DNA from: Bordetella genomosp. 5
Lineage (GTDB): Bacteria > Pseudomonadota > Gammaproteobacteria > Burkholderiales > Burkholderiaceae_B
Length of the DNA stretch: 64,000 bases
Reading direction: 5' to 3'
Assembly: GCF_002261475.1 (NCBI RefSeq)
Contig: NZ_NEVN01000004.1
Span: forward strand, 372,001-436,000
The first letter of the stretch is position 1, and each line of letters begins with the position of its first letter. The notes beneath the pieces were generated by a model. That model was not told the origin of the DNA, did not search any database, and was given only the letters and a program-made list of their open reading frames with translations. Of this stretch, positions 46,027-63,722 are shown in pieces. Made by a program: the position numbers and the translations under genes.

Positions 46027-46299
46027 TACCTTTTTTTAAGGTGTCAGACTGCATTTTTGCGGGCGCTCGACTGAGCGCCCGCTCTACCATCACACCCCGA
46101 TCACACCCGCATCACCACGCATATTCCATCGTGGCGTACATGGTCCTGCCCTGGCCGTACTGGTACCTTTTTTAAGGTGTCAGACTGCATTTTTGCGGGC
46201 GCTCGACTGAGCGCCCGCTTTACCATCACACCCCGATCACACCCGCATCACCACGCATATTCCATCGTGGCGTACATGGTCCGACCCTGGCCGTACTGG
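46027..46299. repeat. Tandem duplication of the TonB-receptor 3' end (2 x about 137 bp)
   Basis: Copy 1 is 46027-46163, copy 2 46164-46299; they differ by one T in a T-run and a few substitutions. Each unit holds AAGGTGTCAGAC, a perfect hairpin GCGGGCGCTC-GACT-GAGCGCCCGC, the receptor's stop region and its last 17 codons. Copy 2 overlaps the functional gene end (46248 onwards), so copy 1 is an orphan 3' fragment. TGTCTGACTACC just before copy 1 pairs with GGTGTCAGAC. Confidence 0.9.
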
Positions 46300-48665
46300 C
46301 ATCCCATCATGCTGTAGCAAGACGCCACGTACTTCTTGTCGAACAGGTTCGACGCATTCAGCGAGAGCGCGAGTCCGCGTCCCGGCGTGAATTCATAGCG
46401 CACCATGGCGTCCATGACCGTGTACGACGACACCTTGAAAGAGTTCTCGCGGTCGCCGTAGCTGTCGCCGACATATCGCACGCCGCCACCGACGCGCAGT
46501 CCGGCCAACGGTCCCGAGGCCGGCAGGCGGTAATCGACCCACACCGACGCCATGTGCTCGGGCACGCGGATGGGCCGGTTGCCCTGAATCTCAGGCTCGG
46601 TGGAGCGCTTCACCTTGACGTCGTTCCACGTGTAGCTCGCCAGCAGATCCACGTTGCGCGTCAGGCCGACCTTGGCCTCCAGCTCCACGCCGCGCGAGCG
46701 TGTCTGGCCTTCCTGAATGTTGAACCCCGGATTCGCCGGATCGGGCGTGCTGACGTTGCGTTTGGTCAGGTCGAACAGCGCCAGCGTGTACATCGCGTTG
46801 GACTGCGGCGGCTCGTACTTCACACCGATCTCGTACTGCCGGCCCATTTCCGGTTTGAAGACGCGGTTATCGAACGTGCGGCCCGTGGCCGGCAGGAACG
46901 ATTCGGAGTAGCTGATGTAAGGGGCCAGGCCGCTATCGCTCAGATAGACCAGCCCCGCGCGCCCGGTGAACTTCTCGTCGTTCTGCACCGGTGCCGAGGC
47001 CCAGGTGGCGGAATTTTCGTTGCGCACCCAGTCATAACGGCCGCCCAGCAACAGCACCCATTTCTTGTCGAACTTCAGCTGGTCCTGCAGGTAGAGGCCG
47101 GTCTGCTGTACCGTCTGGCGGTAGTCGCTGCCCGGAAACATCATCATGTCGGTATTGCCGTAAACCGGGCGGAACAGGTCCAGCGGCGCCGCCATGCCCA
47201 GCTGCTGCCATTGCGAGTACTGGATGCGGCTGTAGTCCAGGCCGGTCAGCAGCGTGTGATCGATCGGGCCCGTGCTGAACTTCGATTGCAGCTGGTTATC
47301 CATGGCCAGCACGTCGCCACTGCCGCGCCGCGAGTCCGCGAAACGGTTGGCCACCCGCTGGTCCGCATCCGCCCAACCGAGCAGGAACAACTCATCGCTG
47401 CTGTGGCGCACATGCGAGTAGCGCAGGTTCTGCCGCACGGTGATGGTGTCGTTGAACTTGTGCTCGAACAGATAGCCGATCGAGGTCTTCTCGTTGACCG
47501 AACGGTCGAAGTCCGGCTCGCCGATATAGCGATGCCGCGGGATGGTGCCATTCGGGTTGCTCAGCACCGTGCCCTGGGCGGGCAGGGCATTGGCGAAGTT
47601 GCCGGTCTGTTTCTGGTACTCGGTCAGCACCGTGAACTCGGTCGCCGCGCTGGGCCGCCAGGTGAACGTGGGCGCAACGAACGTGCGCTCGTTGTGGATC
47701 TTGTCGACCTGCACGTCATTGCTGCGCACCAGCCCGGTCAGACGGTACGACCAGACCCCTTCGGCGTCGAGCGGCGCGCCGATGTCGAACGCCGCATGCG
47801 AATAGCCGTTGCTGCCGCCTTGCACCTGCACCTGATACAAGGGCGTGCGCGGCGCACGCTTGGTCACGAGGTTGATCTGTCCGCCGGGATCCGACGCACC
47901 GTAGAGCACCGAGCTGGCGCCCCGCAGCACTTCGATTCGTTCCAGTCCGTACGGCTCCGGCGCGTCCCATCCCAGATAGTCGCTCGGAAAACCGCGTAAT
48001 CCGTCGCGCAACAATCGGCCGGTGCCCTGTTGGAAGCCCCGGATGATGAGTTGGTCGGCGATGATCTGGCCGCCGGCCACTTCGCTGGTCACGCCCGGCG
48101 TGTAGCGCAAGGCTTGCGTGACAGTCTTGGGTTGCTGGGCTTCGATCTGCTCGGCCGTGATCACCGACACCGACGCCGGCACCTCGATCAACGGCGTGTC
48201 GGTTTTGGTCGCCGTCGCGCTGCGATAGGCGATATAGCCATCCGCCGGGCCATAGGCCGTCGATGCGCCGCCTTCGACCAGCACCGGCGCCAGCTGCGTG
48301 GTGCTGTCCGAGCCCCGGGGCAGTGGCCGGATCGTCACCACGTTGCCGGAGATGTCATGGGTGAAGCCGCTGCCGGCGAGCATCTCGTTCAGCGCGCGCG
48401 AGGCGGGCATCTGCCCCTGCACCCCGCTGGCGCGGGCTGCGCGAATCAGCGCGCCGTCGACCGTCACCTGATAGCCCGACTGCGCACCGAAGATCACCAG
48501 GGCGTCGGCGAGCGGTTGCGCCGGGATGTTGAACGAGACCCCCTGCGCGGCGCGCGGCTGCGCTATTGCCTGGCCGGGCACGCCGATGGTCAGCCCGGCG
48601 ATGGCGATGGTGCTCGTTGCGACGCCATACGCCAGGCGCATCCCCACTTTTTTCTTCATTTTCAT
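46248..48665 (-). CDS. TonB-dependent siderophore receptor with STN domain
   Basis: 805-aa FecA/FpvA-type outer-membrane receptor. Signal peptide to about residue 36; STN (secretin/TonB N-terminal) signalling domain at about 43-113 (VSFNIPAQPLADALVIFGAQSGYQV ... MPASRALNEMLAGSGF); plug at about 145-255 with LIRGFQ, GLERIEVLRGASSVLYG and GGQINLVTKR; 22-strand barrel ending in the Phe/Trp-type terminal strand ATMEYAW. The STN domain means it transmits ligand occupancy to the FecR/FecI pair just upstream. It transports a ferric siderophore of unknown type. Confidence 0.95.
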   Translation of the reverse strand: MKMKKKVGMRLAYGVATSTIAIAGLTIGVPGQAIAQPRAAQGVSFNIPAQPLADALVIFGAQSGYQVTVDGALIRAARASGVQGQMPASRALNEMLAGSGFTHDISGNVVTIRPLPRGSDSTTQLAPVLVEGGASTAYGPADGYIAYRSATATKTDTPLIEVPASVSVITAEQIEAQQPKTVTQALRYTPGVTSEVAGGQIIADQLIIRGFQQGTGRLLRDGLRGFPSDYLGWDAPEPYGLERIEVLRGASSVLYGASDPGGQINLVTKRAPRTPLYQVQVQGGSNGYSHAAFDIGAPLDAEGVWSYRLTGLVRSNDVQVDKIHNERTFVAPTFTWRPSAATEFTVLTEYQKQTGNFANALPAQGTVLSNPNGTIPRHRYIGEPDFDRSVNEKTSIGYLFEHKFNDTITVRQNLRYSHVRHSSDELFLLGWADADQRVANRFADSRRGSGDVLAMDNQLQSKFSTGPIDHTLLTGLDYSRIQYSQWQQLGMAAPLDLFRPVYGNTDMMMFPGSDYRQTVQQTGLYLQDQLKFDKKWVLLLGGRYDWVRNENSATWASAPVQNDEKFTGRAGLVYLSDSGLAPYISYSESFLPATGRTFDNRVFKPEMGRQYEIGVKYEPPQSNAMYTLALFDLTKRNVSTPDPANPGFNIQEGQTRSRGVELEAKVGLTRNVDLLASYTWNDVKVKRSTEPEIQGNRPIRVPEHMASVWVDYRLPASGPLAGLRVGGGVRYVGDSYGDRENSFKVSSYTVMDAMVRYEFTPGRGLALSLNASNLFDKKYVASCYSMMGCQYGQGRTMYATMEYAW

Positions 48666-48756
48666 TGACTCCGATTGTGCGAAATCCCGCGGCTCGGATC
48701 AGGTGTTCCGAGCGGGGTCTATCCACACAACGAAGCAGCGCACGGTTTTTTCGGTA

Positions 48757-48780
48757 TTTCCCTACGATGCGTAGGGGAAA
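48757..48780. promoter_or_regulatory. Stem-loop between fecR and the receptor gene
   Basis: TTTCCCTACG-ATG-CGTAGGGGAAA forms a 10-bp stem with one bulge in the 119-base gap upstream of the receptor gene. It could attenuate read-through from fecIR or overlap the FecI-dependent promoter; no T-run on either side supports a simple terminator. Confidence 0.45.
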
Positions 48781-48784
48781 GGGC

Positions 48785-49795
48785 TCAGGAGGCCTGGCCG
48801 TCCAGCGACACAATCAGCAGCCACGGGGTGACCTGACGTACCCGGCCACCGTGCGGCCGCACGATCAGCTCGGCCGCGGCGGCCGCGTCGCGAGTGTCGA
48901 AGATGCCGGTCACGCTCAGATCCTGCGGCGCGTCGCCCAGCAGCACGATCCGGCCGGCATAGCGCCGGCCCAGATCCTCGATGACGTCGGGCAACGGACG
49001 GTCGACGGCCACCAGCCGCGTGCCCGACCAGCTCCCCACGACATCCGGCGAGACATCGCCCCGGACGGCACCGCCTTTCGCCGACATGCGCACCCACTGG
49101 CCGCCGGTCAGCACCTCGGCCGGGGCAGGAGGCGAGGTGTATTCGACCTGCACGCGGCCGTGCTTGACCGCGACATCGGTGTCGCGCTCGCCGATCCGCA
49201 CATTGAAGCCGGTGCCCAGGACTCGCACCTGTGTGCCATTGGCCTCGACCTTGAACGGGCGGGCAGGGTCGGGGCTGACCTCGAAGAACGCTTCTCCCGC
49301 ATACAGCGTGACCTCCCGTCCGGCGGCGGAAACGTTGGCGCGAAATGCGCTGCCGGGCGCCAGACGCACCAGGCTGCCGTCCTCCAGACGAATCTCCGCC
49401 TGGCTCTTGGAGTCGGTGATGACATCGGCCTGGGCCTGCAGCCAGACGATCGGCGCCACCCACCAGGCCAGGGCCGCCAGACAGACGCCGGCGGCGATGT
49501 GCCGCACGCGCGGCCGCGTCGGCGTGCGAGGTGGAGCGGGCGCAACGGATGCGGACACGGGCGTGGGCTGGGGCGCGGAATGTGGCACGGAGCTGGCCGC
49601 GTGCGATTGGCGGATCAGGCCGTCGACGTGAGCCGTTTGCCGCCAGGCGCCATCGTGCAGCGGGTCGGCCATGCGCCACGCCTCGAAGCGCGCGCGCAGA
49701 TCGGGATCGTCGGGGTCGTCGTCGAGCAGGATGCTCCAATCCACCGCGGCGCGCAGCGCGGCATCCCAGGCGGCGTCGTGATCTTCGTGCTTCAC
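48785..49795 (-). CDS. fecR: FecR-family anti-sigma / signal-transfer protein
   Basis: 336 aa. N-terminal cytoplasmic anti-sigma domain with WSILLDDDPDDPDLRARFEAW and ADPLHDGAW, one transmembrane helix (HIAAGVCLAALAWWVAPIVW, about residues 88-107), periplasmic FecR domain (EIRLEDGSLVRLAPGSAFRANV, GEAFFEVSPDPARPFKV, GTGFNVRI) and a C-terminal domain that meets the receptor's STN domain. The GTG at 49795 overlaps the fecI TGA (GTGA) and is the probable start. Confidence 0.92.
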   Translation of the reverse strand: MKHEDHDAAWDAALRAAVDWSILLDDDPDDPDLRARFEAWRMADPLHDGAWRQTAHVDGLIRQSHAASSVPHSAPQPTPVSASVAPAPPRTPTRPRVRHIAAGVCLAALAWWVAPIVWLQAQADVITDSKSQAEIRLEDGSLVRLAPGSAFRANVSAAGREVTLYAGEAFFEVSPDPARPFKVEANGTQVRVLGTGFNVRIGERDTDVAVKHGRVQVEYTSPPAPAEVLTGGQWVRMSAKGGAVRGDVSPDVVGSWSGTRLVAVDRPLPDVIEDLGRRYAGRIVLLGDAPQDLSVTGIFDTRDAAAAAELIVRPHGGRVRQVTPWLLIVSLDGQAS

Positions 49796-50304
49796 AGGCG
49801 GCGCGACAAACGTTGGATGCAATGCATCTTCGCTTCGGCGATCAGCTGATGCGTGAAGGTCACCGAGAGACCCAGTTGCTGGGCAATTTCTCGCAATTTC
49901 AGTCCGTCGACGGTGTGCAAAGTGAGGGCGAGGCGGGAACGCTCGGGCAATTCGTTGAGGCTTTCAAGGACCATGCTGAGGTCCTTGCGTGCCGAGACGG
50001 TCGCTTCCGGCGAGGGGGATTGGTCTTGAAGCGTGGCGGCCAGCTCGGTGGGATCGCTGTCGGTTTCGGCGCCATCGCGCTTGCGCGCGCGCAGCCAATC
50101 CAGCGCCAGATTGCGCACCGTGCGGTAGAAATACCCCAACGGCTCAGCCAGCGAGCGCCCTTGCTCGACCGCCTGCACGCGTTCCCAGGCGTCTTGCACG
50201 ATGTCTTCGGCGCAGGCGCGGTCCCGCACGAAACTGTCGGCGTAGCTTATCAGATCGCTCCGGTGCAGCTTGTAGAAGCGCACGGACTCAAGTTCGGAAC
50301 TCAC
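49792..50304 (-). CDS. fecI: FecI-family ECF sigma factor
   Basis: 170 aa from the GTG at 50304. Region 2 (FVRDRACAEDIVQDAWERV, LGYFYRTVRNLALDWLR) and region 4 (LNELPERSRLALTLHTVDGLKLREIAQQLGLSVTFTHQLIAEAKMHC) are clear. It directs transcription of the receptor gene after a signal from FecR. A Fur-type box lies 47 bases upstream, so expression should rise in iron starvation. Confidence 0.92.
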   Translation of the reverse strand: MSSELESVRFYKLHRSDLISYADSFVRDRACAEDIVQDAWERVQAVEQGRSLAEPLGYFYRTVRNLALDWLRARKRDGAETDSDPTELAATLQDQSPSPEATVSARKDLSMVLESLNELPERSRLALTLHTVDGLKLREIAQQLGLSVTFTHQLIAEAKMHCIQRLSRRL

Positions 50305-50341
50305 GTGACGGAAGCGGTCGGAAGGCCAACAGGCGGGAAGG

Positions 50342-51967
50342 GTGGAAATTGTAAATGACAATGATTTCAATTTCCATGGGCGCGTGGGTGCACGGCTCCT
50401 TCGGCAGGTAAAAGCGAATGCCAATCTGCCCAATATTGTCTTTGTGCTCCTTTTTCAACCAAGTATCGTTGAAGCGGCTCTTAAGGACATAGCTGGTGGC
50501 GATGGCCGCGCTTTCCTTGAGAAGATTGTGCAGACGAATTTCGACTTGCCAGCAGTTCCAGTGTCCACCGTTCACCGACTGTTCGGCGAGACTCTCGGAG
50601 TTTTAGCTGGCGCTCATGCGACGGAGCAGAACGGTTTTTCCGAGACTCGATGGGGAAACGTCTTCATAGGGTCCATCCAACCACTATTGAGCAACATGAG
50701 GGACGCGCGGCGGCTTCTGTCGTCCATATCGGTTCACCTGCCAATGCATATGGCCGACGATGTATTCGAAGTCAACCTCGTGGATTTCTTGCTTCTGGAG
50801 GCGATTCGGGTCGCAGAACCGAACGTTCACGGCGCGCTATTCCGGGAAAGAGACTTAGTGCTTCAACTACGAGGGAGAATGGATGATCGTCAGCGAGATC
50901 AAACACGGGCCGCAGTGGAAAATCTGCTGGAGTCTGCTTCTTTGGCAAGGCGAGAAGCCACCCGGGATGCTCTTGTAGAGCTGTTTCCTCAACTGGCCAG
51001 GTTCTTTGGCGGAGTGAGCTACGGGGCGGATTTTCACGCGATGTGGCTCGCAGAGAAGCGCGTGTGCTCGCCCCGCTACTTTGCTCGCTACTTCGAACTA
51101 CAGACGGCCGCTGGCGAGGTGTCAGAGCGACGGTTCGTCTTGTTTCTTGAAAGTACGGAGTCAGATGAGCGACTCGCTCAGGTCATAGAGGGGCTTGAGC
51201 GTGATGACTTGCTGAGTTCGCTAGTCAAGCGCCTTGATGAGTCCGTTGATCGCTTGCCGATCGAGAACGCGGCTGTTCTGCTTCCCGCGATGTTCTCCCT
51301 CGCACAAAAATTTGCAGGGCAGCCCGTTGGAGACGCGTTCAGCTCACCTTGGATCTCGGCCTGGAGAGCAACGAATTGGTACTTAAAGCGCATTCCTCAA
51401 GAACAGCGGGCAGAGCGCGCGCTCGCTGCCCTGGAGCGCTCTGGGGCGTTGTCGGTAGGGGCCGTGCTGATTCATCTTAGTGATCCCGCGGATCTGCCGG
51501 AGGAGCGTCGTGCTGGTTTTGCCCCAGCCATGAATGCTGAGGGACTCGAGGGCATGAAGGCGGTATGGCTTCGGCTGATCACAGATCGCGCGGCGCGGGG
51601 CGAAGATCTCCTAAGCGATCTCGACCTTTTCTCGCATCTCTCTCGATGGGCGAAATTCGAGGGGTCTTTGGATGTACCAAAGGCATGGGTTGCTGAGAGA
51701 ATTCGGACTGATGCGGGGTTCGTGGCCGTCGTGTCGAGAATGGCCACGCGTGGGACATCGCATACCCATGGCGATAGAGTGTCCACCTCGCATATCCGAT
51801 TCAATCGTTCAACCGTTGAGGACTTCATAGGCATCGAGGCAGCCAATACTCGCATTCAATCAATTGATTTTGCCGCGTTTGCAGAGAATCAAATCGAGCT
51901 GGAAAAACTGAAGATATCCCTGGAGTCTTGGCTCGGGCTCCGTGAGCCGGACCCGTTCGATTTCTAG
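50342..51967 (+). pseudogene. 5'-truncated KAP-family P-loop NTPase
   Basis: The readable product begins with non-homologous residues that translate the fecI promoter and then, from about base 50390, matches the part of KAP NTPases that follows Walker B: LLRQVKANANLPNIVFVLLF, then FLEKIVQTNFDLP, RDARRLLSSISVHLP and EVNLVDFLLLEAIRV. Walker A and B and the KAP membrane insertion are absent, so ATPase activity is lost. KAP NTPases are common in defence and surface-signalling contexts. The rest of the frame (to DPFDF) is intact, indicating a fairly recent truncation. Codon use is AT-richer than the neighbours to the left. Confidence 0.75.
50351..50369 (-). promoter_or_regulatory. Fur box upstream of fecI
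   Basis: GTAAATGACAATGATTTCA matches the 19-bp Fur consensus GATAATGATAATCATTATC in 13 of 19 positions. It is 47 bases upstream of the fecI start. Iron-dependent repression of fecIR is expected. Confidence 0.75.
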
Positions 51968-52461
51968 TTGGGTATTTTCTCAATCTGGTGCCGGTGCGCG
52001 TCGAACGTGTCTAATTCAAGGGATTTGACGTGGCCGTTGCGTTGAGCGGGCCTAATGTGGCAAGGCAACCTCGCGTTAGCATTTAGGAGAGAATTCGAAT
52101 ATGCACCCCGCAAAGTATTTGAGGCATTGGTAGGAAAAGAACCATTCCAAGATTTGGCATACGTCGGCTGATGTTTCTTCACATATTGGACAGTGCAAAA
52201 CTGGGAAGAGGCGATTTGTGAATCGAAGCGGAACAGTCCGATATATTTGTCCGGAACGCGCCCAGGTTGGAACCCTGAATTTCTAAGTTTTCATGCGGAC
52301 GACTTGAGTGGATAAGGCACTATTGCGGAAACGGTCTTGGGTCGCATTGGCAACTAGACAGTGGGCATTGAGTTAGTCGCCCTTTTATACAATATTGAAG
52401 GCACGCGGTACAATAGTAGATTGTAGCAACAATCATCCACCTGCAAATTTCGCTAAAAATC
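51968..52461. other. Gap between the KAP remnant and the Nudix operon
   Basis: About 490 AT-richer bases. A 38-codon frame at 52055-52171 (starts MWQGNLALAFRREFEYAPRK, ends LAYVG) looks coding-like but matches nothing I know. Near the right end, TTGAGT (52375) and AATATT 17 bases later could form a sigma70-type promoter for the operon starting at 52462. Confidence 0.4.
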
Positions 52462-52986
52462 ATGCAATTATTGTGCCGCCGTTCTAATGGTGAACCGGAT
52501 TCGTATTATGAGTCGCTGCAACGGTCTGCCGTGCGATCAGGCCGCCTTTGTGTGGTCAATGCCATTATTTTGGACGATTGGGGACGAGTTCTAATACTCA
52601 GACGCGCACCGTGGAAGTCCTTCTTGCCATCGTGTTGGGATTTGCCGGGCGGTCATGTTGAGCCGGGTGAGACACTCGAGCAGGCGCTTCGACGAGAAGT
52701 ATTCGAAGAGGTGGGGCTCGAACTTGGCGCCATTGACACATTGACCGCGATCTGGGAGTGGCAGGTCAAACGAGCCCAACGCATACGCAAGGTGCGCCAG
52801 TTCGACTTCAGAGTAACCCTCTCTCGAACTGGTCAGGAAGTTTGCATGGCGCGAGACGACTTCGTAGAATATCGCTGGATTTCTAGCAGCGATCTACATA
52901 TTCTCAAAGAAAATCGGTCAGCCGACGACACTAATATGCTGGAGGTCATCGGCCATACAATGATGTTGCCTCGCGAGCAGTTATGA
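52462..52986 (+). CDS. Nudix hydrolase, first gene of island operon
   Basis: 174 aa. Complete Nudix box at residues 63-86: GGHVEPGE, then ALRREVFEEVGL (Gx5Ex7REVxEExGL), so pyrophosphohydrolase activity on a nucleoside-diphosphate-X compound is expected. It resembles the MutT/8-oxo-dGTP and dNTP-type group in size, with a 25-residue N-terminal extension. Its stop overlaps the next start (ATGA), so it is translationally coupled to the kinase-like gene. No clear ribosome site precedes ATG 52462. The substrate is not predictable. Confidence 0.88.
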   Translation: MQLLCRRSNGEPDSYYESLQRSAVRSGRLCVVNAIILDDWGRVLILRRAPWKSFLPSCWDLPGGHVEPGETLEQALRREVFEEVGLELGAIDTLTAIWEWQVKRAQRIRKVRQFDFRVTLSRTGQEVCMARDDFVEYRWISSSDLHILKENRSADDTNMLEVIGHTMMLPREQL

Positions 52987-53627
52987 GTTCCCAATTTTAT
53001 CTCAGCGTCGAAGGCGTCGATGCCGTCGGCAAGACGACACTCGTTCAGAAACTGCGCTCGGATTTGATAGGGCGCGGCGTGCGGGCCGCAATTAAGTCGG
53101 AGTTTCCAGCCTCGTCTAACATTTCCAACGAAATTGAGCAGGCGCTGCAACGTTCTCCCTTCATCAGCGAAGGCTTTTCGTCAGGCCCGGCCGCCGCGTT
53201 CTTTTTCATGCTATATGCCGAACTGGCAGCTATTGCGGACACGGCTGAAACTTGCGACGTGTTGGTCAGTGATCGGGGGCCTGAATCAGCGTGCATCTAT
53301 CAAGGATCGTCGCTCCACTCGAGGGGGTCTTTCGATGCAAATAAAGTGGTGTTGGCAGTGGAGAATTTGTATTCGAGTCTTGGGCTGCGGCTTCCTGATT
53401 GCACCTTACTGCTGACACTTTCGCCGCAAGAGCTTGCACATCGCCTTGAGATGCGGAACGGTCGCGCCCCAATGCCCGCCGAACTCGAATATCTATTATG
53501 GCTTCAGGATAAGTTCGTGGAGGTGGCGGCCCTCCGGCCACGCTTCGTGAGACTAAATGCAGGCGGCGAGGTAGAAGAAGTTCTCCAAGAGGCGTTGGAG
53601 ATTGTGCAGGCCAAAATAAATTTATGA
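52983..53627 (+). CDS. Thymidylate-kinase-like P-loop nucleotide kinase
   Basis: 214 aa, the usual Tmk length. P-loop GVDAVGKTT at residues 11-19, DR motif in VLVSDRGPESACIYQG (97-108; Tmk has DRYxxSxxAYQG) and a lid-like RNGRAPMP segment. The Tyr of the DRY motif is replaced by Gly, hinting at a changed nucleotide substrate. It is not the housekeeping Tmk by context. It overlaps the Nudix gene by four bases, and its TGA abuts the GTG of the patatin fusion gene. Confidence 0.85.
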   Translation: MSSQFYLSVEGVDAVGKTTLVQKLRSDLIGRGVRAAIKSEFPASSNISNEIEQALQRSPFISEGFSSGPAAAFFFMLYAELAAIADTAETCDVLVSDRGPESACIYQGSSLHSRGSFDANKVVLAVENLYSSLGLRLPDCTLLLTLSPQELAHRLEMRNGRAPMPAELEYLLWLQDKFVEVAALRPRFVRLNAGGEVEEVLQEALEIVQAKINL

Positions 53628-56105
53628 GTGCGCAAACGAATGTTACGGGAAAGTAGCGGAACCTTGTTGCTGGACCCTCAGGCCGACGTTTTTATCGAGA
53701 AGTTCGGGGGTGACCCGAACAATATCGATGTGCTCACTTTCTGGAGTGTTGAGCCGGCCTATCCCTCCGATGTGCTCAGATATCATCTAGGACAACTTGG
53801 CACTCTCAGGATGATGAACGAGTTAGCAGCAAAGGGTTGCGTTGTACAAGCCTTCATCTGCGATTCTGAATCTCGGACGTTGGTGGGAGGAGGTGCGACC
53901 AAGCCTGGGCGTGATATCAGTGTTACGCAACGATTCATTCGGGCGTTGGCAGACAGCTCAATTAGAACGAGGTTGATGAGTGAGGCCGTCGAGGATTTGT
54001 TCCGGAAAGACCCAGATGAGTTCACTCGGCTTACCAACTCTGCGGTGCGGGGTGCGCAGAAGTTCAGGGAATGCATTCAGGAGTATCGACCCCCGAGTTC
54101 CGTGCAAAATGTATTGCCTCAATTTCGTGCCTTTCAAGAAAGTGTGTGTCTGGATTTAGATGTTCAGAGATTCGTCGATAAGTTAAAGCTTCGTTGTCCA
54201 ACTATTTCGTCAGCCGAGTTGCTTTCGAGTCTCTACGCCTCGGTTAGACGACCGAAATGGTTCGATGCGTTCTGGATGGGCGATATGGCGGCGTGGCTCT
54301 CTCTTTATGTGGAAGAGCGGCAAAGAGATTCACCATCACGGCAAGTAGTCCTTTTCGAAGCGAACCGTAGCGCCTATTCTTGGATGACACATCGTTGCTT
54401 CCTCAATATCGGATTGCGGACTCAGCAGGAATCGGGGAGGGAAGTCGTTTGGCCTGAGATGTGTTTTGCTGCGCCATTGCTTTCCACTCAAGGAGGCAGT
54501 GCGATGGAACTCTCCGAGCGCTCAAAGGCAATTTTTCTAACGCACAAGCCGGAAGTTATTCATAAGCGTCTGCTGGCCGCTACGAACGAAGCGCTAGAGT
54601 CGTATCAACGATGGCTTCTGCCCTTTGAGAATCGCCGTACAACTCGCGCGGCACAGGTGATGGAGCTGTCGAGCCGCATTATTGAGTACCGAAAGGCGTT
54701 AGAAGCAGAAGATATAACGCTGCTGACCAGGCCGGCGGAACGCCGTGCGGACCTCACCGGACCGCAAGCCGACGTCAGGATAGGACTGTGTCTCTCCGGA
54801 GGAGGCTTTCGCGCAACTTTCTTCCATTTAGGCCTGATTAAGCTGCTCAGAGATGCAGGACTTTTGAGCCGGGTGAACGCGGTCTATTCAGTATCGGGTG
54901 GGAGTATTCTCGCTGCAAACCTAGCGCTGAACTGGGATTCCTACGCTTCGGGACAAGATGACGAGGCATTCTTTGAAGCGGCCTCAGCCCTCTTTAGGTT
55001 GGCACGTACCGATGTTAGAGGCCGCATAGTGCGCCGCTTTTGGCTCTTTCTGCCGTTTCTTGGGCGGTGGCGCACGGCTTATCTAGAACGACTTTTCCAA
55101 GCTGACGCAGTCTTTGGTAAAGCGGAACTTGGTCAACTTCCCGAGTTGCCGTTCTTCAATTTTTTAGCTACCAGCATGAAGTCGGGGAAGCTAGTCACAT
55201 TTACGAAAAAGGGCTTCAACGACGGCACCACGCTGCATGATAGTTCGCATCTTTCCGTGGCGAGCGCGGTTTCTGCATCGTCGGCGTTTCCTCCACTCTT
55301 TCCGCCTATTGCGTTATCAGCCAAGGATGCGATGTCAGGCGTCGAATCGTTTCCGCGAACGGAACGGCTTACCGACGGAGGAGTTTTTGACAACCTAGGC
55401 TTGACAAGAATGCTCGCAGAGGCGGAAGCGCTACGAGAGGAGGATTGGTGCAATCTTGCGCTGGTGAGCGATGCGTCGGCTCCTTTTGAATGGTCCGGGC
55501 CAGAGAGCTTTAGCTCAATGGTAAAACGGACTGTTAGGACAACCGACATCTTGATGAAGCGAGTGGCTGAGCTTGAAGCCGAAAGAGCTGCACGCAATAT
55601 CAGTCGGCAGACACAAGGAAACGAACCCTTCGTTACTGTGGTCAAGATCGAAGACACCGTGCAGGAGATGCCTACCGGCACGGTAGGCGCCAATGGATAC
55701 TGCGTGCAGGACATCGTGATCCAGAAACTTACTAAGGGAATTCGTACGGATCTCGACAGGTTCTCCATGGAGGAGGTGTGTTCGCTCATGCGCCATGGCT
55801 ATGAGGTCGGACTTCGCACGTTAAAGGACGACTCGTTACTGAGTGCAGATTTTGTGCCGAAAGACCCATGCGGTGTGCCGTTTCCTATGTGCCGCGACTT
55901 GGCTTCAAAATCGGCGAAAGAGCATGGTTCGGCAGGTGCCAGCTTACTGACGAAGTCACGGGCCAAAGCAACGGATCATCTGCGAAAACATCTAATGAAG
56001 TCAGCGAAGCGACGCTGTCGTCTATGGAGCATCCGAGACGGTGCAAGCTGGACGGTTACAGTAGTCGCCGCCGTGCTCGGTGGGGTTTTATTTCTGTTGT
56101 ATTAA
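53628..56105 (+). CDS. Class I aaRS-like domain fused to patatin lipase with C-terminal membrane anchor
   Basis: 825 aa from GTG 53628 (ATG 53640 possible). Residues about 30-330 resemble a degenerate TrpRS/TyrRS catalytic domain: TFWSVEPAYPSDVLRYHLGQ holds a HIGH-like motif (HLGQ 53-56) followed by helix LGTLRMMNELAAKG and strand VVQAFICDSES. Near the end AAPLLSTQGGSAMELSERSK (281-300) plus AIFLTHKPEVIHKRLLAAT matches the KMSKS region, although the lysines are altered. Residues about 384-610 are a patatin domain: oxyanion loop LSGGGFRATFFHLG, nucleophile Ser423 in YSVSGGSILAA and dyad Asp583 in LTDGGVFDNLG. One transmembrane helix ends the protein (808-824). Middle gene of the operon. Confidence 0.75.
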   Translation: MRKRMLRESSGTLLLDPQADVFIEKFGGDPNNIDVLTFWSVEPAYPSDVLRYHLGQLGTLRMMNELAAKGCVVQAFICDSESRTLVGGGATKPGRDISVTQRFIRALADSSIRTRLMSEAVEDLFRKDPDEFTRLTNSAVRGAQKFRECIQEYRPPSSVQNVLPQFRAFQESVCLDLDVQRFVDKLKLRCPTISSAELLSSLYASVRRPKWFDAFWMGDMAAWLSLYVEERQRDSPSRQVVLFEANRSAYSWMTHRCFLNIGLRTQQESGREVVWPEMCFAAPLLSTQGGSAMELSERSKAIFLTHKPEVIHKRLLAATNEALESYQRWLLPFENRRTTRAAQVMELSSRIIEYRKALEAEDITLLTRPAERRADLTGPQADVRIGLCLSGGGFRATFFHLGLIKLLRDAGLLSRVNAVYSVSGGSILAANLALNWDSYASGQDDEAFFEAASALFRLARTDVRGRIVRRFWLFLPFLGRWRTAYLERLFQADAVFGKAELGQLPELPFFNFLATSMKSGKLVTFTKKGFNDGTTLHDSSHLSVASAVSASSAFPPLFPPIALSAKDAMSGVESFPRTERLTDGGVFDNLGLTRMLAEAEALREEDWCNLALVSDASAPFEWSGPESFSSMVKRTVRTTDILMKRVAELEAERAARNISRQTQGNEPFVTVVKIEDTVQEMPTGTVGANGYCVQDIVIQKLTKGIRTDLDRFSMEEVCSLMRHGYEVGLRTLKDDSLLSADFVPKDPCGVPFPMCRDLASKSAKEHGSAGASLLTKSRAKATDHLRKHLMKSAKRRCRLWSIRDGASWTVTVVAAVLGGVLFLLY

Positions 56106-56194
56106 CAAGAGTAAATGTGCGGACAGTCGCGCTTATGACTAAGTCCGGAGGAAAACCCTGTTCAAATTTCGATATAAAAATGAGAGAAACTCCA

Positions 56195-56932
56195 ATGAAG
56201 GTGGTGGTGACGGGCAGCAAAGGCGGCGTGGGAAAGCATCTGGTTGAAAAATACCTGCGAGAAGGCGCGACGGTGATCGGCATCGATCGCCTACCGCGTG
56301 CCTCAGACCACGATGAAGCTGCGTTGGACCGTTATATCGAATGTGATATCGCTTCCATGTCGGCCATTGATGAGGCTGTTGGAAAAATCCAGTCGTGTGT
56401 GCAGAGCATCGATCTACTAATTCATGCGGCTGGCGTCTTCCATGACGATGACACCGTCGCGGTGTCGTCCTCTGCGATGGAAGCGTTGTGGCGCTCGAAC
56501 TATCTAGGTCCAATGCTGCTGACTGAGCGGCTGCGCTCACTGTTGCTTCTGGGGCGGGATCCCTCAGTCGTTTTCATCGCATCCGCCGATGCAATCGTGG
56601 CTAGTGGCGGACAGGATTGCGAGGTCGGCGTCCGCCATGATATGCATTACGCAGCCTCTAAAGGCGCTTTGGTAACTGCCACGCGTGCACTTGCCATGCG
56701 GTGGGCGAGAGACAGGATTCGCGTTAATGCGATCTGTCCGACCATCATCCGCTCTCCGATGGCAGACAGTCTTCTGGCGCAACCAGGAAAAGAACGCGAG
56801 CTTGTCGCGCATATTCCCTTAGGGCGGATCTGCGAGGTGTCCGATGTCGCGGTGGCAGTCGATGCGCTTCACGGACTTACGATGACGACGTCGCACGTCC
56901 TTCCGCTTGATGGTGGATATCTATGCCAATGA
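56195..56932 (+). CDS. Short-chain dehydrogenase in island operon
   Basis: 245 aa. TGSKGGVGKHL cofactor motif (residues 6-16), acidic Asp31 after the second strand suggesting NAD(H), HAAGV, Ser130 in VVFIASADA, Tyr152 and Lys156 in MHYAASKGAL and NAICPTIIRSPMA. Catalytically complete. ATG 56180 (five residues longer) is another possible start. It overlaps the aminotransferase gene (ATGA at 56929), so the two products are likely made together and act on the same intermediate. Confidence 0.85.
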   Translation: MKVVVTGSKGGVGKHLVEKYLREGATVIGIDRLPRASDHDEAALDRYIECDIASMSAIDEAVGKIQSCVQSIDLLIHAAGVFHDDDTVAVSSSAMEALWRSNYLGPMLLTERLRSLLLLGRDPSVVFIASADAIVASGGQDCEVGVRHDMHYAASKGALVTATRALAMRWARDRIRVNAICPTIIRSPMADSLLAQPGKERELVAHIPLGRICEVSDVAVAVDALHGLTMTTSHVLPLDGGYLCQ

Positions 56933-58260
56933 CGGACATGAGATCACCCTCTACCCTCGCCCTCCTAGGAGGCGATGCGCTCGCATGCAGTCGGCAGTTC
57001 CCGCGCAATAGAGTGAAGGCTTCCGAGGACTGTGGCAATGCGGCTATACGCGCACTGCAGTCTGGGGGATGGTCCATGTTCACTTCGGACGAGGTGTCGG
57101 CGTTTGAAACGGAATTCGCTCAGTTTGTGGGTGCAAAGCACACTGTGTTGGTGAACAGCTGCACAACAGCCATATTGGCGAGTCTGATGGCTTCTGGGAT
57201 AGGTCCTGGGGACCACGTCGCAGTGCCTGGCTACACGTATATTGGCACATGCATGCCTGTATTGGCTCTAGGAGCGCATCCCGTTCTGATCGATATCGAC
57301 CCGACCACTCAGTCGATGGATCCTCGGTCTCTCGCACAAGCATTTGAGCAGTATTCCATTCGCGCAGTAGTGCAGGCTCATCTTTTCGGACTATGCAGCG
57401 GCGCGGCCGAGATCGTAGAGCTCTGTGGTCGACACAATGCCGTGTATATCGCCGACAACGCGCAATTATTAGGAGAGCGAGGCATCACCTCCACGCTTGC
57501 GGAATATGGCGCGACCTGCTTTAGTTTCGGAGAGAGCAAACTATTGAGGTTGGGTGAAGGTGGCGCGATCGCGACCAACTCGGACGCTCTTGCAGAGCGG
57601 CTCAGACTGGCACGGCATGAGGGAGAGCAATGGACGAGACTCAATTCGTCTCGACTCGTCGGCACTCAGCCAACCACCAATGATCTGATCGAGCATTTGT
57701 CCAGTGTGCAAGCGGGACTCAACTTTCGCCCTTTTTCGGTAGCAGCCGCGATCGGGCGGGTCATGCTGCGCGAGCTGCCCGAGCGTTTGCAGAAGTTGTC
57801 GGCGAATGCAGCTGTTTTTAATGGGCTTTTGGGAGGCCATTCATGTCTGAAATTGCCTGCGGAGGGTGTTCGGACTTGGTGGACGTATCCTCTATGTGTG
57901 GATCCGAAACACATTGAACGTAACGTTGCTCTTGCGGCGCTGTTAGCCGAAGGAATCCCAGTGGGCGTGCATTTTCCTCGCCTGATTTCCGAGCACCCCA
58001 CAGTTAAGGAGCGTGCAAGAATTGGACCATCTGGCCTCATGGGGGCGACGCAGTTTTCTAAAACACACCTAGTTCTGCCCATCTACCCCTCCCTGGATAC
58101 AAAAGACATCGAGACGATGTGCGCGGCGGTCTCGAAGGTATTAGTCAATGGCAATGACCTTAAGTCAGAGCTTGCGCGTGCTCGTGCGGAGCACTTACTC
58201 AAAACGCGCCCCATATCCGAGCTTTGTGATGGCCTATTCATATTTCTGGAAGACAACTAG
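56929..58260 (+). CDS. DegT/DnrJ/EryC1/StrS-family PLP aminotransferase
   Basis: About 443 aa from ATG 56929 (ATG 56923 possible). Numbered from 56923: PLP-lysine Lys206 in SFGESKLLRLGEGGAI, Asp178 in VYIADNAQLLG, and the GGW and VPGYTYIGTCMP segments. This family transaminates keto-sugars or keto-cyclitols (StsC, RebC, DesV types), usually on nucleotide-linked sugars. It overlaps the SDR stop codon, an SDR/transaminase pair that can turn an alcohol into an amine. Last gene of the five-gene operon. The substrate is unknown. Confidence 0.88.
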   Translation: MTDMRSPSTLALLGGDALACSRQFPRNRVKASEDCGNAAIRALQSGGWSMFTSDEVSAFETEFAQFVGAKHTVLVNSCTTAILASLMASGIGPGDHVAVPGYTYIGTCMPVLALGAHPVLIDIDPTTQSMDPRSLAQAFEQYSIRAVVQAHLFGLCSGAAEIVELCGRHNAVYIADNAQLLGERGITSTLAEYGATCFSFGESKLLRLGEGGAIATNSDALAERLRLARHEGEQWTRLNSSRLVGTQPTTNDLIEHLSSVQAGLNFRPFSVAAAIGRVMLRELPERLQKLSANAAVFNGLLGGHSCLKLPAEGVRTWWTYPLCVDPKHIERNVALAALLAEGIPVGVHFPRLISEHPTVKERARIGPSGLMGATQFSKTHLVLPIYPSLDTKDIETMCAAVSKVLVNGNDLKSELARARAEHLLKTRPISELCDGLFIFLEDN

Positions 58261-58743
58261 CAAATCTTGCGTCCCTATTTTTCTCGGCATGTGAAATTCT
58301 GACGTTCCAGTGACTTGGCTGCTCTGCATGCGAAGGTAGACGAACTTCAGCGTGAGAACGAGCGCCTAAGGCGTCAAGTCTCCGCTAGGGGCAGCATTAG
58401 GCTGATAACTTCGTCGGATTAGGATTTCAAGGACTGACCAAGTAGTAGTGCCTGTAAGGGCGTGCCTCATGCCTCTGCGCAAATTCTCATGGCCCGAGTA
58501 ATTGCTGCCCAGCCTTCCAGTTGCTGATTCGATGATACCCTGTCTTCCTACATCTTTGACCCGCTAGATCTGCGCTTGCTGGAAAACTTACCGTAAGCGG
58601 CTTGTTCTACCGCTTATCCTCGGTTTCGTGGCTTTTGGCTTTGCACTAGCATGTCATCTGTAGGTGGTGACTATGCTTGGTGTCACCTTGGCTGAGTGGC
58701 AGAGCCGTCGATTATTAAAGGCCTCGTGCAAATTGGAGAGCGA
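58261..58743. other. Gap after the operon, with hairpin and a possible coiled-coil remnant
   Basis: About 480 bases. A frame at 58303-58422 without a good start reads LAALHAKVDELQRENERLRR, a coiled coil, possibly a relic of a transposase orfA or another gene. TAAGCGG (58594-58600) and CCGCTTA (58610-58616) form a 7-bp stem. The promoter of the next gene should lie near 58630-58730. Confidence 0.4.
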
Positions 58744-59676
58744 ATGGACCAAAAGTTGCGGCAGAACGCGTTGGGTGAGAATTGGGAGGAGGAAAGATTA
58801 CAGAGGTCCACGACCATTACCGTCGTAGCCGTACTAGTAGTGCTCTTGACTGTGCCAGCAGCTTATTTTGCGTGGTGGCATGGGATCGCCGAGCTACCCA
58901 TAAACGTTACTGACCCAGCTGCCTGGGGAGCCTTTGGCGATTTTTTCGGGGGCTTGCTAAACCCGGTTGTAGCCTTTCTAGCTTTGTTTTGGCTTACCCG
59001 TTCGATTCAAATACAACGTACAGAATTGCGCGAAACCCGTCGAGCGATGAGCGAACAGTCAGCGACATTAGATAAGCAGCGCTTTGAAGATACTTTTTTT
59101 GCGTTACTGGATCAGCACAATAAGGTCTTAGATAGTCTGTCGGCCCGATCGGTCTATGAGGACTTTAGTAGCGAAATCGAGCGAGTTCATCATCACTCAC
59201 TGCGGTCTGCCTCATATTTGAGCACTGCGCGTCAGTTCCTGATGCGCCATGACGCAAGCGTTGGCCACTATTTTCGAATTCTTTATCAGCTATTCAAGCT
59301 CATTGCCACCAATAGTCCTGGTAGTACCTTGGGAGGAAGGTTTACGCCGGACGCTATACTTGATCAGTTACCATCAGATGAAGAAAAGAAGTATGCAAAC
59401 ATTGTGCGAGCGTTCCTCAGTTCTCATCTAACTCAGCTCTTGGCGGTTAACTGTTATTGTAAATCGGAAGATAGGACTTACTGGGCTTACAAGTGTTTAG
59501 TTGAGCGATACTCGTTGCTTGAGCATATGCCATTTGATGTAAACGGTGAGGATAGTTTTCCGTTGCTCGAAGCACGCGAAGCTTATAAAAGTTGTGCGTT
59601 CGGAAATAGCGAATTTGTCCGGCGGCTGGAGAACTCTGATAGATGGCTAGCTCGTCCAGCCGGAAACGGCAGTTAA
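58744..59676 (+). CDS. Putative phage abortive-infection protein (putAbiC-like)
   Basis: 310 aa from ATG 58744 (GGAG five bases upstream; GTG 58696 is an alternative). Layout: TM1 (TITVVAVLVVLLTVPAAYFA), the signature WGAFGDFFGGLLNPVVAFLALFWL as TM2, a coiled coil (IQIQRTELRETRRAMSEQ), then KQRFEDTFFALLDQHNKVLDSL and a helical cytoplasmic domain with YFRILYQLFKLI. These features match putAbiC-type proteins (Pfam PF16872), named for similarity to lactococcal AbiC. Phage defence is inferred from the family and the island setting. Confidence 0.75.
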   Translation: MDQKLRQNALGENWEEERLQRSTTITVVAVLVVLLTVPAAYFAWWHGIAELPINVTDPAAWGAFGDFFGGLLNPVVAFLALFWLTRSIQIQRTELRETRRAMSEQSATLDKQRFEDTFFALLDQHNKVLDSLSARSVYEDFSSEIERVHHHSLRSASYLSTARQFLMRHDASVGHYFRILYQLFKLIATNSPGSTLGGRFTPDAILDQLPSDEEKKYANIVRAFLSSHLTQLLAVNCYCKSEDRTYWAYKCLVERYSLLEHMPFDVNGEDSFPLLEAREAYKSCAFGNSEFVRRLENSDRWLARPAGNGS

Positions 59677-60525: not shown

Positions 60526-61731
60526 CTAGCGGAATGGTGTGACCAGGCTTGTGCCATTCTTGTAACCGTAAAGCACTTTGTATGGAGGGCTCTCCGCGTC
60601 GAAAAGCACATTCTCGCTGGTGTGGGCTCTCCGCCGCAGTTCGAGCAGCTGATCATAGTACTCCGCGATTGATGCCTGAATGCCTCGGTCAAGCAGCACC
60701 GACGAGCTCAACAGCCGGAGATGTTGCAGCAGCGATGCGTGTCTGCCAAACAGCTTGATCGCACCGTGCGAGATCAGCATTCTTGGACTGACATCATCAC
60801 GGTCTCGGGCTTCAACGAGGTCGCGACCGCGCCGCAGAAATCCTGGGTGCGAGGTGTCATCGAGAACTTCTTCCAACGAGCGGTCAAAGGCTAGAAGTTG
60901 GCGCCTCAACTGGCCCAGCGCAACGGTAAGATGTACCAATTGTTCCACCGGCGACGGAAGTGCGGGTGCCGATGGGCGCGGGTTCGACTCTGCGTTAAAC
61001 CATTGCACGGAGACTGGTTGCGTGATCGTCGACGCGCCCGCCGGCAGGTACGTGTACGCCAGCAGATGCCGAGGCTTGACCGCACCGAGCGTCGCGTTAA
61101 TTGACTGCGTCTTGTTAGGGCCGTACCCCCGTGGCTTTGCCTGATACCGGCCGGAAACGCCTTTTATTTCGTAAAAAGCTAGCCCGCCATTCATGTGGGT
61201 CATCAGGTAGTCTGGCGCCAGCCCCTGCCATCGGTTAATCCAGGGGCCATAGTGTGCCGGCCAAAGCACGTCAAAGTCTCGTCGAGAAACGAAGTCCACG
61301 TAACCGTTCTCTAACGCCGCGGCAAGCGCAATCGGGACCGACAGCAGCTCGCCGAATGATTTGCGCTGATGCGGCGGCGACGTTGCCATTGGGGCGGTGA
61401 CAAACAGCTTGCCAGTGACGGGATGACGTTCGAGCAGCATTTCCAACAAGTTCTGATACAGCGCAATAGGCATCTCATTCTTGGTGCCGTCAGCAGCCAT
61501 GCATGCAGTGATTGCGTCGCGAGTAACGCTCAGGCTTCTAGCCGGGGCCCCTTGGTTTTTGGGGTGTGCGAACCACTGGTCCCATTTCGTTGTCACCAAG
61601 CGGCGGGCACTTGCTTCGGTCTTCGAATTGAACGCCAAGGTCGACGGTGGAGGTCTTGGAGCCGTCTGTTTATTGGGTGCATCAAAGAAAACGATGGACT
61701 CACTGGCGGGTGGACTGATTGACGGCAGCAT
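60526..61731 (-). CDS. Uncharacterised protein, candidate PD-(D/E)XK nuclease
   Basis: 401 aa, start 61731 with AAGG upstream. I do not recognise the family. Residues about 125-210 contain elements of the PD-(D/E)XK fold: a helix Glu in SFGELL (128), PD at 173-174 in LAPDYLMTH, ExK at 188-190 in LAFYEIKGVS and Lys207-x-Gln209 in GPNKTQS. The C-terminal half is helical (LVHLTVALGQLRRQLLAFD, SLLQHLRLLSSSVLLDRG). With island neighbours a nuclease effector is plausible but unproven. No obvious operon partner; an IS30 scrap lies just upstream. Confidence 0.55.
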   Translation of the reverse strand: MLPSISPPASESIVFFDAPNKQTAPRPPPSTLAFNSKTEASARRLVTTKWDQWFAHPKNQGAPARSLSVTRDAITACMAADGTKNEMPIALYQNLLEMLLERHPVTGKLFVTAPMATSPPHQRKSFGELLSVPIALAAALENGYVDFVSRRDFDVLWPAHYGPWINRWQGLAPDYLMTHMNGGLAFYEIKGVSGRYQAKPRGYGPNKTQSINATLGAVKPRHLLAYTYLPAGASTITQPVSVQWFNAESNPRPSAPALPSPVEQLVHLTVALGQLRRQLLAFDRSLEEVLDDTSHPGFLRRGRDLVEARDRDDVSPRMLISHGAIKLFGRHASLLQHLRLLSSSVLLDRGIQASIAEYYDQLLELRRRAHTSENVLFDAESPPYKVLYGYKNGTSLVTPFR

Positions 61732-61952: not shown

Positions 61953-63722
61953 CTAGCAAGCTGAGCTAGCTGTAATCAATGCTTTTCCCCAATGTCGTTC
62001 TCCAAGAGGAATCAGACGTTGAAAACGCGCGATAATTGCGGCGAGCGCGGAACATGATGCACCACGTGGCAACTTGTAGGCGAGGGTTAGTAACTTGTCT
62101 CCTGCCCATTTGGAGGCGGAAATCTTATCTTTTTCTGCGCCGGCAGCTAGCAGGATTAGCCATACTATGGGCTCAACTTGTTTGGGGTCGTTCAAGTTAT
62201 CGCAGTATTCGAGAATTTTCTCCACTGCCGCTTCTGCCAGTTTCACATCTCCCTGCCTGCTTGCTGCTTTGCAGCAAGGCTCGAGCGTCAAAACAGTTTG
62301 CCTAAAACAGTCTTCCGTCGGCGGAGAGAACGCCTTGATAATTTGGCACGCTTTGATAGTAGGCTCTCGTTGAAGTGGTGTGCCCGGGCATAATGCGCTA
62401 ACGCCGTAAACATCTGCATTTGCTTACTCTCGCTTTCAAGGTGAGAATAGGGATCGAGAATATCCTCGTCTAGCGACTTGGCAGGGTGGAGCGCCCAGTC
62501 GCGCCTACCACCATCAATAATGTCGGGCAAGCCGATTAGCAGTCGACAGTATGACTCGAGTTCTTCGGGCTGCGATGCCGTCTGTGTAGCAGGAAGCCCT
62601 ACTGCCGATGCGTTGTCCGTCGCGCGAAGCAATGCGGTACCCCAAGGTTGGCGGGGGCTAAGGTCCTCAAAGCTCCATCTGGGCTCCGCAAGATGATCAA
62701 GCATTTCGACCGTCATGTAGTCTGCGGCGAGATTGCCGTCGAGTTGGCTTGTTAAATCGTGCGCTTCCTCGTCGGACAGGAAAATGGTTTCGAGAATGAT
62801 GGTTGCATGGGTAAACGCTGCCAGCCTTCGCCAAAATACGGGCGCCGGCGCTAGGGCGCTCGCCTGGCTGATCGAAGCCATTGTCAGTTGCGCTAGCTTA
62901 ATCAGAAGATCGACATGTTCGATTCGCGCTTCCTCTTTTTCGCCGTTCTCGATGAGATGCTTTAGGGCCTCTCGCGAAATCGGGCTAAATCGCTCATCGG
63001 AAGACGCGCGAGCTCTAGATAGCTCGTAAGTGACCATTAGAGCGAAAGGAGTGACGCCGATGCCTATTATTTGAAAGGCAGTCAACAGGTCGTCGTTCGA
63101 CACAAAAGCCATGGCAGCCACCGGATCTACACTTTCTGTAACGCAGACTGCTTGAAGGCACCTAAGGGCCCAAGGCGGACTCTTTGCAATGATGGCAGCG
63201 AGGTGAGGTGTGAGCAATTCCGCGGCATACTCCTTAGGTCCGATGTGTTCCGGGATTGATCCCAAGATCGATTCGTAGTAGGCCGTGGCCTTGGGAATTA
63301 TCTCTGAGATACTAAAGCCCCCGCTTTGGAGGCTTTGTAAGATCCTGGCGAGTGTTGGTTGTGCTAGCTGTCGCAGCTCTTCCAGCACTAATTCGAAGTC
63401 ACTATCAGAAAGCGGTGCACTCGACACGCGTTCCTGCCAAATTAACGCACGTGGCCAATTGGGAAGCGCTCGATTAGCGAGGTGTCGAATACCCTCAGTC
63501 CGGATATCTGCTGAAGGATCGAGCAGGGAGAGTTCTGGAATATCTGTTTGATGCCCCGACTGCCCTTTGACCCGAAACATTGCATTTGCGGCCCGAGCTG
63601 CGTAGACGGGCCCGGCTTCCAGGGAGGAAACTTAGTGCGAGCCCGACTTCGGTAGGCAGTCGTTCTGCCGCGGATTGCAGGTCACAGCATTCCTTATGTA
63701 ACAGTGGACTTTCCAGAGTCAT
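61953..63722 (-). pseudogene. Frameshifted large hypothetical protein (helical repeats)
   Basis: Three frames on the minus strand join into one gene: MTLESPLLHKECCDLQSAAE (from 63722), shift near 63635 to a frame reading SLEAGPVYAARAANAMFRVK and on through the 430-aa open frame (63580-62288), then shift near 62380 to EPTIKACQIIKAFSPPTEDC...LEYCDNLNDPKQVEPIVW and the stop at 61953. Together about 590 residues, mostly alpha-helical (HEAT/TPR-like in feel), no catalytic motif seen. Either a pseudogene or, less likely, programmed or sequencing frameshifts. A hairpin AGCTAGC/GCTAGCT (61951-61971) covers its end. Confidence 0.55.

Follow-up and report, generated by a model that had tools for sequence, protein, structure and literature searches.

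A patatin-like lipase fused to a probable, degenerate TyrRS/TrpRS-like domain in a low-GC island of Bordetella genomosp. 5

What could a degenerate tRNA-synthetase-like domain do in front of a membrane-anchored lipase? The question is raised by an 825-residue protein of Bordetella genomosp. 5, encoded by the open reading frame (ORF) 53628..56105 in the 64,000-nt stretch of contig NZ_NEVN01000004.1 that was analysed (positions 372,001 to 436,000, hereafter the window; features lie on its forward strand unless stated). The ORF has a GTG start, from which residues are numbered, placed directly after the last base of the stop codon of a dTMP-kinase-like gene. Its product combines a patatin domain (PF01734, E 1.1e-18) and a C-terminal membrane helix with an N-terminal part that resembles tyrosyl- and tryptophanyl-tRNA synthetases (TyrRS/TrpRS). 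From sequence, modelling and analogy we tentatively favour, with real reservations, a membrane-tethered patatin in which a diverged, probably non-activating relative of TyrRS/TrpRS would serve as a nucleotide-ligand switch for phage defence.

Residues 387-592 (54786..55403) are a patatin domain with predicted lipase activity. They match PF01734 at 68.6 bits, above the gathering cut-off of 27.7 and beyond chance. The oxyanion loop GGGFR occupies residues 391-395, and the predicted catalytic dyad, assigned by position and by alignment with 14 relatives selected from 20 listed rows, consists of Ser423 in VSGGS (54894..54896; VSGG at 422-425) and Asp583 in DGG (55374..55376). VSGG and DG are found in all 14 relatives, the complete DGG in 10. 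The protein ends in a hydrophobic helix at about residues 804-825 (56037..56102); the hydropathy maximum for a 19-residue window begins at residue 806 with a mean Kyte-Doolittle value of 2.1. The first-pass annotation, made by a model from the letters alone, had described this same loop, Ser and Asp together with a single C-terminal membrane helix, and both descriptions hold.

The N-terminal part, residues 1-381 (53628..54770), is probably a remote TyrRS/TrpRS homologue. PF00579 (TyrRS/TrpRS) was the sole family listed for it in a Pfam scan at E up to 10, with residues 52-84 matching profile positions 18-50 (E 0.1; 12.4 bits, under the cut-off of 21.1). The best match among PDB sequences was Thermus TyrRS 1h3e, residues 259-336 aligning with its 201-275 at E 0.029, which improves to 0.0066 when the query is only 110 residues long. 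These two matches concern separate regions of the protein, come from different libraries and designate one family in the right order. The HIGH position, covered by the PF00579 match and by a sub-profile match at 53-83, reads HLGQ (residues 53-56; 53784..53795), exactly where it had been reported before: the first His and the Gly are retained and the second His is replaced. The KMSKS position, covered by the 1h3e match and by sub-profile matches at 267-322 and 282-323, holds AMELS and ERSKAIFLTHKPEVIHKRL (residues 292-315; 54501..54572). The signature itself was not recovered, the aligned residues 292-296 being AMELS and the signature lysines being absent. The stretch that follows KMSKS had been recognised earlier with the right sequence and slightly wrong coordinates (297-314); SERSKAIFLTHKPEVIHKRL spans 296-315, starting one residue earlier. 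AMELSERSKAIFL presumably resembles the signature of KMSAS type known from TrpRS of archaea and eukaryotes. A class I synthetase without the KMSKS lysines should form adenylates poorly or not at all. Adenylate formation by the N-terminal domain is doubtful because KMSKS is lost, and binding of a nucleotide is therefore favoured over its synthesis, two options that the first-pass annotation had left side by side.

The likeness was calibrated with profiles built from 47 TyrRS/TrpRS of other genomes that passed a filter for a recognisable HIGH/KMSKS motif. Thirty were of TyrRS type (from 32 loci, two failing the filter; a further locus, L102, had been excluded earlier) and 17 of TrpRS type (from 20 regions). 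Adding 43 viral-contig sequences, those longer than 230 aa among 46 loci, gave a 90-sequence profile; 26 of these 46 loci entered alignment A4. Scores were compared with those of shuffled sequences and of 235 control ORFs (six-frame ORFs of at least 300 aa from 18 loci, some of which may not be genes). With the 47-sequence sub-profiles, 270 of 20,000 shuffles did as well as the protein for the HIGH region and 106 for the KMSKS region, and the control ORFs doing as well numbered nine and one, respectively. The 90-sequence sub-profiles lowered these figures to 187 and 11 shuffles and to five and zero control ORFs. No shuffle and no control ORF equalled the protein in both regions with either set. 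The fixed sub-profile matches are colinear, with HIGH at 53-83 and KMSKS at 267-322 or 282-323. Such a result makes remote homology probable but does not prove it.

Several results weigh against this homology and what is built upon it. Whole-length profiles perform poorly: 93 of 5000 shuffles equalled the protein with the 47 sequences, 57 of 5000 with the 30 TyrRS-type and 590 of 5000 with the 17 TrpRS-type sequences, and the 90-sequence profile was equalled by 80 of 20,000 shuffles and two of the 235 control ORFs. Comparison with TyrRS/TrpRS by hhalign gave a Prob of 0.2. The HIGH and KMSKS pieces searched alone match no PF00579. At E 0.02 the HIGH piece also hits a chimera that contains Myc, so that chance can yield hits of such E. 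Structure prediction, proposed by the first-pass annotation as a check, divided its answer. The single-sequence AlphaFold2 model is uninformative (mean predicted local distance difference test, pLDDT, of 36.6; nothing in the PDB matching at E up to 0.001), and the alignment-aided model is TyrRS/TrpRS-like. The latter has a mean pLDDT of 58, residues 124-222 fall below 50 and are treated as not modelled, and Foldseek TM-scores by query length are at most 0.48 among the matches listed. Because its alignment consisted of TyrRS/TrpRS, it speaks for compatibility and is not independent proof.

Searches for relatives of residues 1-381 add to the same side. No convincing one was found in plasmids, phages and viral contigs, nor in a genome-contig search by a method that finds close relatives only; among 299 genomes of the phylum the own genome alone matches at E 0.001, and a family-wide search of PHROGs gave no match. 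Matches at E up to 1 occur in 33 of 268 genomes of the family, the best besides the protein itself being at E 0.0015 (in the own genome, with two internal stops) and then 0.022; they were read as noise. The full-length query matches 35 plasmid records, none over 80% of its length and all listed matches beginning at residue 341 or later; 28 of 399 genomes of the order including its own, the 28 other listed places beginning at residue 316 or later; and two of 117 genomes of another family, in the lipase part. A 1142-aa ORF found along the way is an ordinary patatin lacking the N-terminal part, and a DNA search of E. coli genomes for the fusion found none. The fusion is thus known from a single locus, which limits the claim, and no description of a patatin-synthetase fusion turned up in search listings of open-licence papers.

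In a rival view the N-terminal part has nothing to do with synthetases: it is a largely helical domain through which a patatin defence protein is regulated or senses phage, and the HIGH and KMSKS likeness is due to chance. This would fit the near-chance whole-length profile and hhalign scores, the chance matches of similar E, the long helical stretches present in both the single-sequence and the aided model, and the lack of homologues to confirm conservation. Since none was found, homologues could not decide the N-terminal fold. We nevertheless consider this explanation rather unlikely, for two regions point to one and the same family, correctly ordered and in separate libraries, and the joint occurrence of both motifs was not reproduced in the calibration. 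The proposal of a TyrRS/TrpRS-like N-terminal domain therefore stands with moderate support from the two colinear motif regions, tempered by the faint whole-length signal and a PF00579 score below cut-off.

What speaks most strongly for a nucleotide link is a five-gene predicted operon that the first-pass annotation overlooked. Its order is NUDIX hydrolase (52462..52986; 174 aa; PF00293, E 6.6e-22), dTMP-kinase-like P-loop kinase (52983..53627; 214 aa; PF02223, E 9.3e-14), the fusion, short-chain dehydrogenase/reductase (SDR; 56180..56932; 250 aa from the Met at 56180; PF13561, E 4.5e-34 for the longer frame) and DegT/DnrJ/EryC1 aminotransferase (56923..58260; 445 aa; PF01041, E 2.4e-67). NUDIX and kinase genes overlap by 4 bp, no base separates kinase and fusion, 74 bp lie between fusion and SDR, and SDR and DegT overlap by 10 bp. 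Catalytic motifs are intact: the Nudix box, TGxxxGxG and YxxxK of the SDR, and the lysine motif SKxxxxGEGG of DegT. A weak promoter-like site precedes the NUDIX gene (52386..52414), in a region where such sites are no commoner than in shuffles. PADLOC matches NUDIX to PDC-S07 and the kinase to VakA and PDC-M51B; these matches cover common domains and may be unspecific. In NCBIfam the best DegT matches are PseC and ArnB-type, every one below cut-off.

The gene set has no counterpart among 33 loci fetched around relatives, none of which holds three of the five genes. In one of them (L211) 3 kb separate a dTMP-kinase match from an SDR match; in another (L096) an SDR match adjoins a DegT match. 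The kinase matches 22 of 369 genomes of the class at 1e-5 including its own (best other 5.2e-7), two of 399 genomes of the order at 1e-7 including its own (the other at 1.2e-8), and nothing in plasmids, phages and viral contigs. These matches were rejected as operon relatives and taken for housekeeping Tmk, two neighbourhoods having been looked at. DegT finds nothing in plasmids at a strict threshold of 1e-40; it has ten genome loci, the best listed identity being 41% for a short alignment and 32-33% where alignments are longer.

The operon lies in about 15 kb of low-GC sequence within the high-GC chromosome, from roughly position 50300 of the window to roughly G000:C6:437300, the island genes having 48-58% GC against 64% for the window. 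Next after the operon comes a gene for an AbiC-like protein (58696-59676; PF16872, E 3.8e-15) that has a hydrophobic N-terminal part and whose 48% GC is the lowest among the listed island genes. At the other edge a PifA/KAP-NTPase-like ORF (50342-51967) covers positions 202-711 of 720 of the PifA profile and 171-289 of 293 of KAP; it looks 5'-truncated and overlies the start of an opposite-strand ECF (extracytoplasmic function) sigma-like gene. The AbiC-like and PifA/KAP-like genes in a low-GC island suggest abortive-infection phage defence. The minus-strand ORFs 60526-61731, 62288-63580 and G000:C6:436300-437274, the last beyond the window, have 53-58% GC. The first two have no match in Pfam, PADLOC or NCBIfam; we take the 'FYEIKG' of ORF 60526-61731 to recall a PD-(D/E)xK nuclease core. 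Genes for a TonB-dependent receptor, a FecR-like and the ECF sigma-like protein, read from translations, adjoin the island on the minus strand (46248-50433). No tRNA gene was found in the 60 kb scanned, and inspection by eye recognised no integrase.

In the ligand-switch reading that we favour, the old adenylate pocket, deprived of KMSKS and of the second His of HIGH, would bind a nucleotide-like or aminoacyl-nucleotide-like molecule; it is because of these two losses that a ligand-binding switch appears its most likely role. The ligand-bound domain would control the lipase, and the switched lipase would damage the membrane. The NUDIX, dTMP-kinase-like, SDR and DegT enzymes may make, phosphorylate or clear the ligand, for example an amino-deoxy nucleotide, a role suggested by their families and by analogy with the pathways of puromycin and aminodeoxyguanosine (ADG). 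According to passages of PMC9239236 and PMC11641026, NUDIX, aminotransferase and NAD-dependent dehydrogenase act together in these pathways and a phosphatase acts last; with a kinase in place of the pathway-ending phosphatase, the product here may stay phosphorylated. The island setting would make the outcome abortive infection against phage. If true, a synthetase-derived sensor would be a new kind of input for patatin effectors and a retired tRNA-synthetase pocket would prove reusable as a switch, while the neighbouring enzymes narrow the ligand candidates and make the ligand testable.

The operon could also be metabolic. It might be a small biosynthetic cluster whose product is an aminonucleoside decorated with a lipid or an amino acid. 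Amination of a nucleotide sugar would then fall to SDR and DegT, and the adjustment of phosphates to NUDIX and kinase; the synthetase-like domain would assist in attaching an amino acid, and the patatin would work at the membrane as an acyl-hydrolase or acyltransferase. In passages of PMC9239236 and PMC11641026 the core common to the puromycin and ADG pathways consists of NUDIX, a DegT-type aminotransferase and an NAD-dependent dehydrogenase; PMC2922099 describes class I synthetase relatives that serve peptide and metabolite synthesis, and DegT and SDR keep their catalytic motifs. We consider this possibility unlikely too: with KMSKS lost adenylate formation is doubtful, no transporter was recognised among the five operon genes, the same island carries defence-like genes, and the Pfam matches of the SDR are to SDR families. 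Less probable still is a nucleotide alarm of new chemistry, in which SDR and DegT would aminate a nucleotide, NUDIX and kinase would set its phosphates, the retired synthetase site, fused to the membrane lipase, would read the product or an aminoacyl-adenylate and the infected cell would be killed. A substrate trap or housekeeping role, a lipid-metabolism patatin keeping an old synthetase domain for dimerisation or localisation beside co-acquired sugar-nucleotide genes, is very improbable: TyrRS/TrpRS are dimers, genes of DegT and SDR type often occur in sugar-nucleotide clusters and the best DegT matches are the sub-threshold PseC and ArnB-type ones, but the lipase is tightly coupled to NUDIX and kinase genes with no obvious lipid-metabolism reason, and the island setting does not favour it.

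Compared with known systems, the protein shares with patatin-like phospholipases (PF01734) the domain, the oxyanion GGGFR and the Ser/Asp dyad, and differs in its GxSxG, which reads SVSGG, and in its long unrelated N-terminal part. The closest relative found, the Rhizobium plasmid patatin QDG93965.1 (7821-9725 of its locus), has 33.9% identity over query residues 382-727. Its lipase domain, too, is followed by a hydrophobic stretch; it has no synthetase-like part, and the other four operon genes are absent from the 17 kb fetched around it. Beyond its hydrophobic stretch it continues for about 160 residues, some of them forming a glutamine-rich, coiled-coil-like part. Cyclic-nucleotide inputs are known for patatin effectors in bacterial immunity. 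Those of CBASS (cyclic oligonucleotide-based antiphage signalling systems; NF041079) resemble the fusion in joining a patatin to a nucleotide-type input, here hypothesised, whereas the fusion scores 20.5 bits on NF041079, below the cut-off of 200, and neither the operon nor the scanned proteins, which covered part of the island's ORFs, showed a recognisable CD-NTase. Patatin effectors themselves being known, what is new would be the kind of front domain. With TyrRS/TrpRS (PF00579) that domain shares HLG at the HIGH position, the stretch after KMSKS and a compatible model; it differs by its score below cut-off, by AMELS for KMSKS and HLGQ for HIGH, and by the fused lipase. Section 5 of PMC2922099 gives a precedent for relatives of class I synthetases in other roles: cyclodipeptide synthases are likewise diverged relatives with another job, a family not listed for the fusion in Pfam scans, but they are described as no longer having HIGH and as having acquired a conserved serine, in a GxSxx motif that follows strand 1, whereas HLG is retained here. 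The operon is likened to the puromycin and ADG pathways, as far as the sources cited above describe them, by family only: it brings together NUDIX, aminotransferase and NAD-dependent dehydrogenase, and differs in that a kinase replaces the monophosphatase, the dehydrogenase is of the SDR family and the lipase fusion is added.
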